DNA of 64,000 nucleotides. Source: Deltaproteobacteria bacterium GWC2_55_46. GTDB taxonomy: Bacteria; Desulfobacterota; GWC2-55-46. The position numbers were made by a program, and so were the translations under genes. Below, in pieces: positions 16,881-53,975 of the stretch; position 1 is the stretch's first letter; each line of letters starts with the position of its first letter. The notes under the pieces are model-generated. The model saw only the letters and a list, made by a program, of their open reading frames with translations. It did no database searches and had not been told where the DNA came from. The DNA is taken from the NCBI GenBank assembly GCA_001595385.3, contig LVEI03000001.1:310001-374000 (forward strand), read 5' to 3'.

Positions 16881-17543
16881 CTACCTCCTCTTCATCCCCT
16901 CGAAGAATATGTCTACGAATGTATCCGCGACCTTTTGCGTAGGCCTTGTAAAGCGTCGCTTGAAACCGTAAAGCTCCTGGACGATGCTGTAATGTATGAC
17001 CATCCCGATAAAGGCCCTCGCGGCCAGCGCCGTATCGACCGGCCTCATCGAACCGTCGGCCACGAGTTCTTTTATATGCCCTTCGAGAAAGTCGAGGAGC
17101 TCAAGGGCCCTTGTCTTAAGGAAGAGTTCGGAGAGCGATTGTTTCTCAAGCGCGCTGTATGTGAGAAGGCGCAGGAATGACGGGTCCTTCCGGTGCTCTT
17201 CAAGCAGATGAGTGGCGACGGTCCTGAAGACCTCCTTGCCCTGCTTGCCCTTAAGGAGTGTCAGCAGGCGGCTGTCGCCCTCCGTGTCAGCGCACCTGGA
17301 GTCTATGATGGCCTTGTAGAGATCCTCTTTCCTTCTGAAGTGCTTGAATATCACCGCCTCGCTTATGCCGGCCTTCAGGGCTATCTCGCGCGTGGTGGTG
17401 CCGCGGAAGCCATTGCGGGCGAAGAGGTCCGCGGCGACCTTCACTATCTGGACCCTGCGCTCATCCCCGCTCATCCTCGCACGAGGCGGCGCTGGCCTTT
17501 TTCTGACCGGTTTTTCTTCCATGTCCTTCATCGTCCTGTCCAA
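16881..17543 (-). CDS. TetR/AcrR-family repressor of the efflux operon
   Basis: 220 aa. The N-terminal helix-turn-helix (about 28-75) reads DERRVQIVKVAADLFARNGFRGTTTREIALKAGISEAVIFKHF, shown here in meaning rather than as one block: helix 2-3 contains TTTREIALKAGISEAVIF. The C-terminal part is the ligand-binding helical domain. It is the first gene of the efflux operon and has a palindromic site between its promoter and start codon, which implies autoregulation with release by pump substrates. The first five codons could be replaced by ATG 17528. Confidence 0.92.
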   Translation of the reverse strand: MDRTMKDMEEKPVRKRPAPPRARMSGDERRVQIVKVAADLFARNGFRGTTTREIALKAGISEAVIFKHFRRKEDLYKAIIDSRCADTEGDSRLLTLLKGKQGKEVFRTVATHLLEEHRKDPSFLRLLTYSALEKQSLSELFLKTRALELLDFLEGHIKELVADGSMRPVDTALAARAFIGMVIHYSIVQELYGFKRRFTRPTQKVADTFVDIFFEGMKRR

Positions 17544-17553
17544 AACAACTATG

Positions 17554-17569
17554 GTGAGTAAGTGCTCAC
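17554..17569. promoter_or_regulatory. probable TetR-family operator
   Basis: GTGAGTAAGTGCTCAC is a perfect inverted repeat of GTGAG arms around 6 bases. It sits immediately downstream of the tetR -10 hexamer, over the expected start point, and 10 bases before the start codon. The position suits self-repression of the efflux operon. Confidence 0.7.
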
Positions 17570-17570
17570 T

Positions 17571-17598
17571 ATCATATCATCTCGCCACCGATTGTCAA
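17571..17598 (-). promoter_or_regulatory. sigma-70-type promoter of the tetR-efflux operon
   Basis: On the minus strand there is TTGACA, 16 bp, then TATGAT, ending one base before the operator palindrome. Confidence 0.7.
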
Positions 17599-17635
17599 GC
17601 GGCAGATACGAAAAGCCGTCTGCTTCAAAAGAACG

Positions 17636-17665
17636 TTGACAGACGCAACTTAGTTGCATTAGAAT
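17636..17665 (+). promoter_or_regulatory. fur/zur promoter with the operator inside the spacer
   Basis: A perfect -35 (TTGACA, 17636-17641) and TAGAAT (17660-17665) are 18 bp apart. The spacer contains GCAAC-TTA-GTTGC (17645-17657), a perfect palindrome that fits a Fur-family operator and would block RNA polymerase when bound. The -10 ends 7 bases before the fur ATG, so the mRNA probably starts at or next to the start codon. Confidence 0.7.
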
Positions 17666-17672
17666 CAGGGTT

Positions 17673-18110
17673 ATGGCTGAAAGACTCAATGAGATACTCT
17701 CGGAGCTATCTGGCAGGGGCTTCAGGCTCACGCGCATCCGCAGGGGCGTGGTGGAGCTTTTCATCACGAACGCCCTCCCCCTTTCCGCCCTCGAAGTCAT
17801 CAGCATGCTCGGGCAAAGCATTACTACCTTCAACAAGACCACCGTCTACAGGGAGCTGGCCTTCCTCAAGGAGCACGGCGTCATAAAGGAGATACAGTTC
17901 CCGCACGAGCGGGCCAAAAGATATGAGCTGGCAACAGGTGAGCACCACCACCATCTTATATGCCTCAAGTGCAGGAAGGTAGAGGAGATAGAGCTGGAGG
18001 GGGACCTCGAAGAGCAGGAGAAGAAGATATTAAGGTCGCGTGGCTTCCACGTGACGAACCACTCGCTCGAATTCCTGGGGATATGCCAGACATGCAGGTG
18101 GCAGGCGTGA
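17673..18110 (+). CDS. Fur-family metal-responsive repressor, probably Zur
   Basis: 145 aa with the Fur-family winged-helix (about 10-85, with FNKTTVYRELAFLKEHG as recognition region). The metal-site cluster is HHHH (91-94), then Cys pairs C97/C100 and C138/C141 that form the structural zinc site. It is translationally coupled to the zinc-uptake genes that follow: its TGA overlaps the znuA GTG. This makes a zinc sensor (Zur) the best reading, though Fur or Mur cannot be excluded on sequence. It has no evident Shine-Dalgarno sequence. Confidence 0.88.
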   Translation: MAERLNEILSELSGRGFRLTRIRRGVVELFITNALPLSALEVISMLGQSITTFNKTTVYRELAFLKEHGVIKEIQFPHERAKRYELATGEHHHHLICLKCRKVEEIELEGDLEEQEKKILRSRGFHVTNHSLEFLGICQTCRWQA

Positions 18111-19039
18111 AACGATACGCCGTCGCCATGGCGGTCCTGGCGGTCATCATATTATCGATAGCCGTCCTTTTGACGTACAGGCAGCCGGAGGAGCCAAAGG
18201 ATGGGAAGATCAGAGCGGCGGCGAGCTTCTATCCCCTCGCCCACTTTATCGAGAAGACCGGCGGCGAGCATATAGATGTTCTTGACCTCGTTCCCCCGGG
18301 GGCGGAGTCGCATGATTTTGAGCCAACGCCAAGGGACATACGGAGGGTTGTCGCCTCGAAGCTCTTTGTCTATCTTGGCGCTGGCTTCGACCCGTGGGCA
18401 GAGAGGATCGCTCCTGAGCTTGCCAGGGCGGGTGTAACCACTGTAAGGATATCTGACCGCTTCACCCTGAAGGAGACGGAAGAGGAAGGCCACGAAGGCA
18501 ATGAGCACGGCCCACTCGACCCCCATATCTGGCTCGACCCGGTCCTGGCCTCTCAAATGGCAGATATACTGAGGGACAAGCTCATCGAGCTCGACCCGGT
18601 AAACGCCGCCTACTACAAGGAGAACGCAAGAAGATTCAAGGCTGAGCTTCAAAAGCTCGACGACCAATTCAAGAGTACGCTTTCCTCATGCGCCAGAAGG
18701 GATATCATAGTCTCTCACGAGGCCTTCAGCTACTTCGGAAGAAGGTATAATCTGAATATCTTCCCTGTCACCGGGGTCTTCTCAGGCGAGGAGCCGAGTC
18801 CAAGGCGCATGGCGGAGGTTTCGAAGCTTATGAAAAACATGGGGATAAGATATATCTTCACCGAGCCTCTCGGAAATCCACGTACAGCCCGAACGATAGC
18901 CAGGGAGACCGGGGCGACGGTCCTGACCCTCAACCCCATAGAAGGGCTTACGCCAGATGAAAAAAAATCCGGCAAGGACTATATCTCGATAATGAGAGAG
19001 AACCTCGCCAATCTCAAGACAGCCCTCGATTGCAGATGA
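18107..19039 (+). CDS. znuA: zinc ABC transporter substrate-binding protein (ZnuA-like)
   Basis: 310 aa from the GTG at 18107, whose GTGA overlaps the fur stop; ATG 18083 in the same frame is a possible longer start. It has an N-terminal signal/anchor helix (AVAMAVLAVIILSIAVLL), then a cluster A-I metal-binding fold: FYPLAHFIEK, GAESHDFEPTPRDI, LDPHIWLDP, IIVSHEAFSYFGRRY and the late Asp/Glu region. The short His/Glu-rich loop (EEEGHEGNEHG) is typical of zinc binders. It delivers Zn2+ from the periplasm to ZnuB. Mn2+ specificity is the alternative. Confidence 0.88.
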   Translation: MKRYAVAMAVLAVIILSIAVLLTYRQPEEPKDGKIRAAASFYPLAHFIEKTGGEHIDVLDLVPPGAESHDFEPTPRDIRRVVASKLFVYLGAGFDPWAERIAPELARAGVTTVRISDRFTLKETEEEGHEGNEHGPLDPHIWLDPVLASQMADILRDKLIELDPVNAAYYKENARRFKAELQKLDDQFKSTLSSCARRDIIVSHEAFSYFGRRYNLNIFPVTGVFSGEEPSPRRMAEVSKLMKNMGIRYIFTEPLGNPRTARTIARETGATVLTLNPIEGLTPDEKKSGKDYISIMRENLANLKTALDCR

Positions 19040-19785
19040 AAAAAACAGAGTGCATAGAAGTCAGGGACTTGAGCTTCAACTACAACGGCAACCCTGTCCT
19101 TGAGAATATCTCCTTCTCCGTCGAAGAGGGCGAATACCTCGGCATCATCGGCCCTAACGGCGGCGGTAAGACTACCCTTTTCAAGGTCATACTCGGCCTC
19201 CTGAGGCCGACCTCCGGGGAGGTAAGGATATACGGAGAGCCGCAGGAATCCTTCACCAGGCGGCACCTCATAGGCTACGTGCCACAGAGGACTACAGCCG
19301 AGGTCTACTTCCCTGCGACCGTGGAAGAGGTGGTGAGAAGCGGCAGGACCGCGCGTATGGGGCTTCTAAGGAGGCTTTCAAAGGATGACCTGACGGCGGT
19401 AGCGAAGGCGATGGAGATAACCGACGTGGCAAGGCTCAGCACGAGGCTTATCGGGCGCTTATCCGGTGGAGAGCGCCAGAGGGTCTTCATCGCAAGGGCG
19501 CTTGCGAGCGACCCCAGGATACTCATCCTCGACGAGCCTGACGTGGGGGTGGACGTCACGGCCCAGGAGAAGTTCTATTCCTTCATAGAGGACCTGAACC
19601 GGAATTTAAAGATAACGATACTGCTCATATCCCACGACATCGACGTAGTGGCGCACCAGGCAAAATCGGTCCTCTGCCTCAACAGGAGGCTTGTCTGCCA
19701 CGGCTCGCCAAAGAAGTTCATAAACGAGGATTACATGCAGGAGCTTTACGGCAAGAAGGTCAAGTTCATCCTTCACGGGCACTGA
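19036..19785 (+). CDS. znuC: zinc ABC transporter ATP-binding protein (ZnuC-like)
   Basis: 249 aa. Walker A is GPNGGGKTT, the ABC signature LSGGERQR, and Walker B ILILDEPDVGVD, followed by the switch His in LLISHD. The start ATG overlaps the znuA stop (ATGA). It energises uptake through the ZnuB permease encoded 18 bp downstream. Confidence 0.92.
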   Translation: MKKTECIEVRDLSFNYNGNPVLENISFSVEEGEYLGIIGPNGGGKTTLFKVILGLLRPTSGEVRIYGEPQESFTRRHLIGYVPQRTTAEVYFPATVEEVVRSGRTARMGLLRRLSKDDLTAVAKAMEITDVARLSTRLIGRLSGGERQRVFIARALASDPRILILDEPDVGVDVTAQEKFYSFIEDLNRNLKITILLISHDIDVVAHQAKSVLCLNRRLVCHGSPKKFINEDYMQELYGKKVKFILHGH

Positions 19786-19803: not shown

Positions 19804-20604
19804 ATGCCAGAGATATTCGAGCTTGACTTCATGAGGAGGGCCTTCGCGGCCGGGATACTCATCTCGGTCATCCTCCCGCTTATCGGCGTATTCCTTGTCG
19901 TTCGCCGCTACTCGCTCATGGCCGACACTCTCGCCCATGTCTCGCTGGTGGGTGTGGCCATAGGCGTCCTTACGAACACGCAGCCGGTCGTCTCGGCGAT
20001 CGCCGCGTCAACTCTCGCGGCAGTTGCGATAGAGAGGCTCCGCGGCATAAAAAGCCTCTTCGCCGAATCGATACTCGCCATATTCCTTTCAGGCAGCCTT
20101 GCCGTGGCGGTCGTCATAATAAGCCTGGCCAGGGGCTTTAACGTGGACCTCCTGAGCTATCTCTTCGGCAGCATCTCTACCATCGGCCCGGTAGACCTCT
20201 ACATGCTCTCAGCGGTCTTCGTCGCCGTGCTTCTGGCGATAACGCTTCTCTACAAGGAATTTTTCCTGGTATCTTTTGACGAGGAGTTCGCCGAGGCTGG
20301 CGGAGTGAATGCGAGGAAGTTAAATCTCCTGATAGTCGTGCTGGCGGCGGTCACCATTTCCCTTTCCATGAGAATCGTCGGCATACTCCTTATAGGCGCC
20401 CTCATGGTCATACCGGTAGTGAGCGCCAGGCAGTTCGACCTGAGCTTCAGGAAGACGATATTCATCTCCATCGCCTTTTCGCTCTCCTCGGTAATATCAG
20501 GGCTCTTCCTCTCGTATTACCTCGACCTCGCCAGCGGCGGCACGATAGTCCTTATCGCCCTCGCATTCTTTCTCCTGTCATTTATACTTAACAGGCCCGA
20601 GTAG
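19804..20604 (+). CDS. znuB: zinc ABC transporter permease (ZnuB-like)
   Basis: 266 aa, about eight membrane helices, with the cluster A-I permease landmarks: AFAAGILISVILPLIGVFLVVRRYSLMADTLAHVSLVGVAIG at the start and the EEFAEAGGVNARKLN cytoplasmic loop that contacts the ATPase. GGAGG stands 16 bases before the ATG. It ends the fur-znuA-znuC-znuB operon, so uptake and its repressor are made together. Confidence 0.92.
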   Translation: MPEIFELDFMRRAFAAGILISVILPLIGVFLVVRRYSLMADTLAHVSLVGVAIGVLTNTQPVVSAIAASTLAAVAIERLRGIKSLFAESILAIFLSGSLAVAVVIISLARGFNVDLLSYLFGSISTIGPVDLYMLSAVFVAVLLAITLLYKEFFLVSFDEEFAEAGGVNARKLNLLIVVLAAVTISLSMRIVGILLIGALMVIPVVSARQFDLSFRKTIFISIAFSLSSVISGLFLSYYLDLASGGTIVLIALAFFLLSFILNRPE

Positions 20605-52808: not shown

Positions 52809-52916
52809 GAGAACCTTTATCCGCTCTCATCAACGGATATTCCGTGATCGTGGAGAAGCCAATTTTCAAACGCATACCCGTTGACTTCAAAAACGCTTTG
52901 CTTTAATCTATAGCTC

Positions 52917-53975
52917 ATGAAAAAACTTACATACAGTCAGGCAGGCGTTAACATCGACGAGGGCGCGAGGCTTGTAAGTCTCATCAAACCCGCTGTCCGG
53001 TCAAGCTACAGAAAAGAGGTGCTTGGAGATATCGGCGGCTTCGGAGCCCTCTTCTCCGGCAGGTTCAAGGGGCTTAAAGAGCCGGTCCTTGTCTCATCTA
53101 CCGACGGGGTCGGGACAAAGCTCATGGTCGCCTTCATGGCAGACAGGCACGACACAGTCGGCATAGACCTTGTCGCCATGAGCGTAAACGACATACTCGT
53201 AAGCGGGGCAGAGCCGCTTTTCTTCCTCGACTATTTCGCAACCGGCAAGCTCGACGCGAAGAGGGCCGCGGATGTCGTAACTGGGATAGCAAAGGGATGC
53301 AAGCTCGCCGGATGCGCCCTCATAGGCGGAGAGACGGCTGAGATGCCAGGGCTATATAAAACAGGCGAATACGACCTCGCCGGTTTTGCCGTGGGTGTGG
53401 CGGACAAAAAAAAGCTCATCGACGGCTCGAAGATAAGGCCCGGTGACAGGGTCATTGGCCTTGCCTCAAGCGGCCTTCACAGCAACGGCTTTTCGCTGGC
53501 GAGGAAGGTCATATTCGATATCCTGAAGCTTAAGGTAAAAGACAGGCCGAAGGGCTTTACCACCGATATAGGCTCGGTCCTCCTTGCCCCCACCCGTATA
53601 TACGTAAAACCGGTCCTCAAGCTCATGAAAGAGCACGACGTGCTCGGCATGGCCCATATCACAGGCGGCGGCTTTACAGACAATATCCCCAGGGTTCTTC
53701 CTGACGGGGTATCAGTGGTAATAGAAAATGGCTCATGGCCCGTCCCTCCGATATTCAGACTCATAAAGGAAGGCGGCTCGATAGAGACTGGAGAGATGCT
53801 CCGCACCTTCAACTGCGGCATAGGCCTTATCCTCATAGTCAGGGCAAAGGACGAGAAAGCCGTCCTCATAAGGCTCAAGGCCCTCAAGGAAAAGGCCTTT
53901 ACCATCGGCGAGGTCGCCCGCCGCAGGGGCAAAGGCCCACAGGTAGAGTTCACAGGAAAATCGGGTATATTGTAA
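52917..53975 (+). CDS. purM: phosphoribosylformylglycinamidine cyclo-ligase
   Basis: 352 aa. Family blocks are [24 protein letters not shown] and [17 protein letters not shown]-type sequence (here [15 protein letters not shown]). It closes the imidazole ring to make AIR in purine synthesis. No Shine-Dalgarno sequence is present. TTGACT and TTTAAT lie upstream (spacer 15), the latter 9 bases before the ATG. Its stop overlaps the purN start (TAATG). Confidence 0.95.

Follow-up and report, generated by a model that had tools for sequence, protein, structure and literature searches.

The zur-znuACB promoter of a deltaproteobacterial genome carries a predicted Zur operator, likely yields a leaderless mRNA and appears to recur in distant bacterial groups

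In the window, by which we mean the whole 64,000-nucleotide stretch of DNA that was analyzed, a FUR-family regulator gene, zur, heads a zinc-uptake-type operon. We consider it probable that zur-znuACB is transcribed from a single autoregulated promoter that is occluded by zinc-loaded Zur, and that the product is a leaderless polycistronic mRNA from which Zur is made scarce relative to the transporter. This model builds on the observed anatomy of the promoter, the operon, the absence of a Shine-Dalgarno (SD) sequence, and the conservation of operator, promoter and start spacing. From comparison of sequences, the same arrangement of the zur promoter appears to recur in related zinc regulators of several distant bacterial groups.

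Sequence reading and a promoter scan place the -35 hexamer TTGACA at 17636-17641 and the -10 hexamer TAGAAT at 17660-17665 on the + strand, with an 18-bp spacer between them (17642-17659). Inside this spacer lies a predicted Zur-type operator, GCAACTTAGTTGC (17645-17657, +), identified from sequence and conservation; its parts are GCAAC (17645-17649), TTA (17650-17652) and GTTGC (17653-17657), and the whole forms a 6-1-6 palindrome (GCAACT/T/AGTTGC). Seven bases (17666-17672) separate the -10 hexamer from the zur ATG at 17673, and this geometry predicts a transcript start at the A of the AUG (17673; range about 17671-17673). No usable SD precedes this ATG, where the best anti-SD pairing is -1.9 kcal/mol, and AGGG at 17667-17670, with 2 nt between its end and the ATG, is too near to act as an SD. 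The promoter and operator positions, the seven-base gap and the missing SD had all been described in the first-pass annotation of this DNA, which proved exact to the base. An in-frame stop lies upstream of zur (17637-17639), and from there to the conserved region the ATG at 17673 is the sole ATG, GTG or TTG. A scan of both strands from 17450 to 18150 returned two sigma-70-like sites, compared with a mean of 0.3 in shuffled sequence, and the TTGACA/TAGAAT promoter, with 11 of 12 matches, is alone on the + strand. A divergent TetR-family gene (16881-17543) has its own promoter, TTGACA-16-TATGAT, on the - strand (within 17553-17598), adjoined by the palindrome GTGAGTAAGTGCTCAC; from ORFs read by eye, this gene heads genes that we take to encode outer-membrane, adaptor and RND efflux proteins. 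A second leaderless-type promoter lies elsewhere in the window, at about 52872-52922 (+), where TTGACT, a 17-bp spacer and TAATCT are followed after 7 bases by an ATG with no SD.

Close orthologues of zur, defined as matches with E below 1e-25 among 59 genomes searched, were found in 21 genomes including its own. The exact sequence GCAACN3GTTGC lies upstream of zur in all 21, and in the alignment of their upstream regions, which has a mean identity of 39%, the operator half-sites are invariant or nearly so. A start codon stands 14-17 nt past the last operator in 17 of these 21 genomes, the exceptions being G019 (22 nt), G022 (37 nt), G015 (7 nt) and G028 (28 nt). In four relatives (L015/L042, L018/L047, L019 and L020/L106, from G028, G022, G009 and G015), the region upstream of zur holds a tandem pair of Zur-type palindromes spaced 33-34 bp apart, and in two of the four one copy has a mismatch.

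We also compared 84 homologues, comprising the best 80 of 383 relatives from a scan of named genomes together with loci L004, L006, L009 and L019. This set covers Deltaproteobacteria-labelled MAGs, Nitrospirota and many Patescibacteria groups, as well as single Bacillota- and Actinomycetota-labelled MAGs; bins in general can contain foreign contigs. An exact operator lies at most 350 bp upstream in 70 of the 84; loss of the palindrome from orthologues, which the first-pass annotation had named as evidence against its own reading, is thus not what the close or the wider comparison shows. Among the 14 homologues in which the exact operator is missing, 7 have a one-mismatch form; at L092, which also has no exact operator, the variant TGCGACATTGTCGCA carries symmetrical changes in both half-sites and keeps the same placement, just upstream of the start codon. 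TTGACA stands exactly three bases ahead of the operator in 38 of the 70 operator-bearing homologues. At 47 of these 70 loci the start codon closest to the operator follows it by 13-17 nt (exactly 14 nt at 23), and at the other 23 by 4-12 or 18-45 nt; some in-frame start lies 10-18 nt past the operator at 56. After thinning to one sequence per 80%-identity cluster, the operator was present in 57 of 71 clusters, with a start 13-17 nt past it in 41. In a quick tree all 84 homologues stand apart from six Fur paralogues, and 46 of the 87 inner branches are open, so we make no claim of transfer between phyla.

Spacing, the lack of an SD, the conservation of both and published precedents together argue that the zur mRNA is likely leaderless, starting at or near the AUG. 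With the commonest operator-to-start distance, 14 nt, transcription would be expected to begin at the A of the AUG. A TANNNT motif occurs 4-9 nt before the nearest start at 51 of the 70 operator-bearing loci, versus 315 of 4200 positions drawn at random from these loci. At 47 loci, TANNNT has a fixed offset from the operator and an in-frame start lies 12-18 nt past the operator; an SD 4-mer is present at 4 of these 47. We weighed the reading that Zur autorepression is right but that the mRNA has a leader of about 5-15 nt, produced by a later -10 or by slippage, or arises from an undetected upstream promoter, in which case zur would be SD-less without being leaderless. Such a leader would accommodate the variation in the -10-to-start gap at the 47 loci (4-9 nt) and the homologue starts that lie 18-45 nt past the operator, for example the 28 nt at L178 and L180, in two genomes of the source phylum. 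However, the mode of that gap (6 nt, 24 of 47) corresponds exactly to a start at the A of the AUG, the region from 17450 to 18150 has a single promoter-like site on the + strand, and an SD is missing in nearly all homologues (anti-SD pairing of -5 kcal/mol or better at 3 of 54 starts), and we judge a short leader to be unlikely. Within 464 kb of the source genome, leaderless-type spacing was found at 8 of 180 unit-leading and 4 of 167 internal genes, a count that used a crude ORF caller whose matches lacked zur itself. This is not a clear enrichment, so the source genome is not known to favor leaderless translation.

A leaderless zur may also bear on the ratio of repressor to transporter. For the acuR-acuI-dddL operon of Rhodobacter sphaeroides, the 5' end was mapped to the AUG and the repressor is described as being translated less than the downstream genes (PMC3017554). 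Like zur, acuR is a repressor gene that stands first in its operon, lacks an SD and is conserved in diverse taxa, and it is autorepressed, as zur is predicted to be, but it encodes a TetR-family, acrylate-responsive regulator, and the protein and its operator are unrelated to those described here (PMC3017554). In the zur operon, anti-SD pairing amounts to -5.9 kcal/mol at znuA, -11.2 kcal/mol at znuB and -0.2 kcal/mol at znuC. As znuC has no SD, the ratio argument rests on znuA and znuB, and with SD-like sequences at these two genes and none at zur and znuC, an acuR-type logic is plausible but mixed.

The zur gene (17673-18110, +) encodes a FUR-family regulator of 145 residues, assigned by PF01475 (E 2e-26) and alignment, and its 93 bits against a cut-off of 23.1 place it within the FUR superfamily. 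Directly downstream on the same strand is a ZnuABC-type transporter, consisting of the zinc-binding component znuA (18107-19039; PF01297, E 7.7e-81), which overlaps the end of zur, the ABC ATPase znuC (19030-19785; PF00005) and the ABC-3 permease znuB (19804-20604; PF00950). Tblastn found znu-type neighbors downstream of most zur homologues. The structural CxxC...CxxC zinc site (C97, C100, C138 and C141) is kept in 84 of 84 homologues. Residues 36 and 93, which we take to correspond to the E. coli Fur H33/PerR H37 position and to the Asp of the HHDH motif, are His and Asp in all six Fur paralogues examined from relatives, whereas residue 36 is Pro in 79 of 84 homologues and residue 93 is His in all 84; a Fur or PerR identity was rejected on these ligands. 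The Zur proteins of E. coli and Streptomyces have a regulatory-site cysteine, and the position aligned with it is residue 85, which is Glu in 79 of 84 homologues, or ambiguously residue 87, where a Cys is found in 9 of them. Against the equivalog model for E. coli-type Zur (NCBIfam NF008646), the score stays below the cut-off (45.1 versus 167 bits), so the regulator is Zur-type by context and ligands and is not that equivalog.

Taken from the znuACB operon and the ligand pattern, the regulator is Zur-type rather than Fur. Thus, of the initial label "fur/zur", the second half holds, and the first gives way to the operon context and the replaced His/Asp ligands. We give still less credence than to a short leader to the proposal that the regulator senses manganese or iron and that the ABC system is a Mn or Fe transporter, a change that would leave the promoter logic as it is. 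Consistent with that proposal, Mn-type families appear among the NCBIfam matches of the binding protein, all of which score far below cut-off, and the E. coli-type Zur model also scores far below its own. On the other hand, the Pfam family matched is ZnuA, the zur homologues have lost the His/Asp pattern seen in Fur paralogues, and the box as published consists of predicted Zur sites upstream of znuABC.

Within its own 2.79-Mb genome, GCAACN3GTTGC has three exact sites, with about 2.7 expected (4^-10), and the two besides that of zur lie inside ORFs. The bare string is therefore no commoner than chance, and it is the placement and conservation of the palindrome that exceed chance. A search with ATGCAACTNAGTTGCAT, allowing up to 3 mismatches, returned the zur site and one poor three-mismatch site, and its reversed control returned 1 site. 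Neither the exact search nor the ATGCAACTNAGTTGCAT search found a second Zur target in this genome, and the suggestion that the operator would serve as a motif for locating the rest of the regulon was not borne out, as no larger regulon was revealed. The chance number of exact sites would agree with reading the palindrome as an accident of sequence rather than an operator. Conservation refutes this reading, to which we assign next to no probability: all 21 close orthologues and 70 of the 84 homologues carry the exact palindrome in the corresponding position, and its columns are invariant within the 39%-identity alignment.

The arrangement can be described as a cassette of about 38 bp that comprises the -35, the operator in an 18-bp spacer, the -10 and an AUG at +1. 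A search of 49 homologue genomes with a leaderless pattern gave 27 matches in 25 genomes (1 for the reversed-pattern control); 24 of the 27 are zur loci of the homologue set, and of the other three, one is a second zur and two are znuA genes. The cassette sits directly on znuA in some genomes, and at L158 znuA itself is of leaderless type. At L168, in the genome of L082, the cassette AUG opens a 10-codon ORF (MSNHHQYEIE) that overlaps the znuA start and may encode a leader peptide, itself leaderless, with coupling to znuA. At L170 (Patescibacteria), what follows a cassette-bearing zur is, by eye, a gene for a ZIP-like membrane protein in place of znuABC. In unselected samples, genomes with the leaderless pattern numbered 6 of 395 in the source phylum, where controls gave 0, 5 of 145 in that of G455 and 3 of 118 in that of G460. 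Controls matched in 2 genomes of each of the latter two phyla, and one of the five matches in the phylum of G455, L172, is not zur. The cassette is thus sparse in each phylum. A looser pattern, YGCAACNNNGTTGCRNNA, matched in 29 of 247 genomes in a phylum search; the reversed control was about the same size among the matches listed, so most of the loose-pattern matches are chance. When 30 YGCAACNNNGTTGCRNNA loci were examined by tblastn, five had a zur-like gene with E below 1e-20 (L178, L179, L180, L194 and L195), and L183 and L189 gave weaker zur-like matches.

In the mechanism that we propose, a Zn-loaded Zur dimer would occupy GCAACT-T-AGTTGC in the -35/-10 spacer when zinc is sufficient, and RNA polymerase would be blocked. 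This occlusion of Zur's own promoter is inferred from geometry, because binding of Zur to an operator between the promoter hexamers should exclude RNA polymerase, and from published precedents. When zinc is short, Zur would be released and transcription would begin at the ATG or within about two bases of it, giving a leaderless polycistronic zur-znuACB mRNA. Translation of Zur would then begin without an SD at the 5' AUG, probably less efficiently than that of at least some downstream genes, and this lower efficiency may keep the repressor scarce relative to the transporter. What goes beyond the DNA itself in this model is the role of zinc as effector, the blocking of the polymerase, the precise position of the transcript start and the ratio of translation. 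A further idea, which we hold tentatively and consider rather doubtful, is that the cassette is conserved from Deltaproteobacteria to Nitrospirota and Patescibacteria because leaderless translation of zur is functional, giving a low repressor-to-transporter ratio and keeping zur-znu translatable when zinc starvation changes ribosomes.

Elements of this model have precedents. A predicted ZUR-box, ATGCAACNNNGTTGCAT, was described in Desulfovibrio (Rodionov et al. 2004, PMC545781), and the window operator matches 13 of its 14 specified letters, with one differing. In the passages of that report that concern the box, the same palindrome lies upstream of znuABC in a cluster with a FUR-family gene, but zur comes last (znuABC-zur) and the boxes are at -216 and -47 from the translation start, positions that are not of the leaderless type (PMC545781). 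In Corynebacterium glutamicum, the Zur targets cg0042, cg0043 and cg2911 are leaderless, and their Zur sites overlap promoters at which transcription starts on the A of the ATG, as is predicted for zur in the window; the figure legend gives the cg0043 start as a bioinformatic deduction (PMC2823685). As described there, the C. glutamicum system differs in having another, 21-bp motif and in a 45-nt leader on the zur operon (znr-zur) (PMC2823685). TA-led (leaderless) genes, in which TANNNT lies about 12 bp ahead of the start codon, were reported in 8 of 33 delta-proteobacterial genomes (PMC3160421). The zur gene fits this sequence pattern, as the first T of its TANNNT is 13 bp before the ATG and there is no SD (anti-SD -1.9); TA-led genes resemble it in this spacing but are presented as a genome-wide class with no tie to Zur or an operator (PMC3160421). 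Among the papers covered by a literature string search, the motif box occurred only in PMC545781, and among the matches listed no paper dealt with a leaderless autorepressed Zur promoter whose box is conserved over phyla. The Zur box (2004), Zur targets with leaderless mRNAs and a repressor-first operon that is both leaderless and autorepressed are therefore known, and it is their combination, conserved over distant phyla, that we did not find in print.

Together, these comparisons extend the box predicted in 2004 to a large clade of Zur proteins and tie it to a probably leaderless, autorepressed promoter over great distances. The cassette provides a signature by which zinc operons of uncultured phyla can be recognized from sequence, and it offers a clean test, set up by nature, of the reason that leaderless mRNAs are so common among autoregulated repressors.
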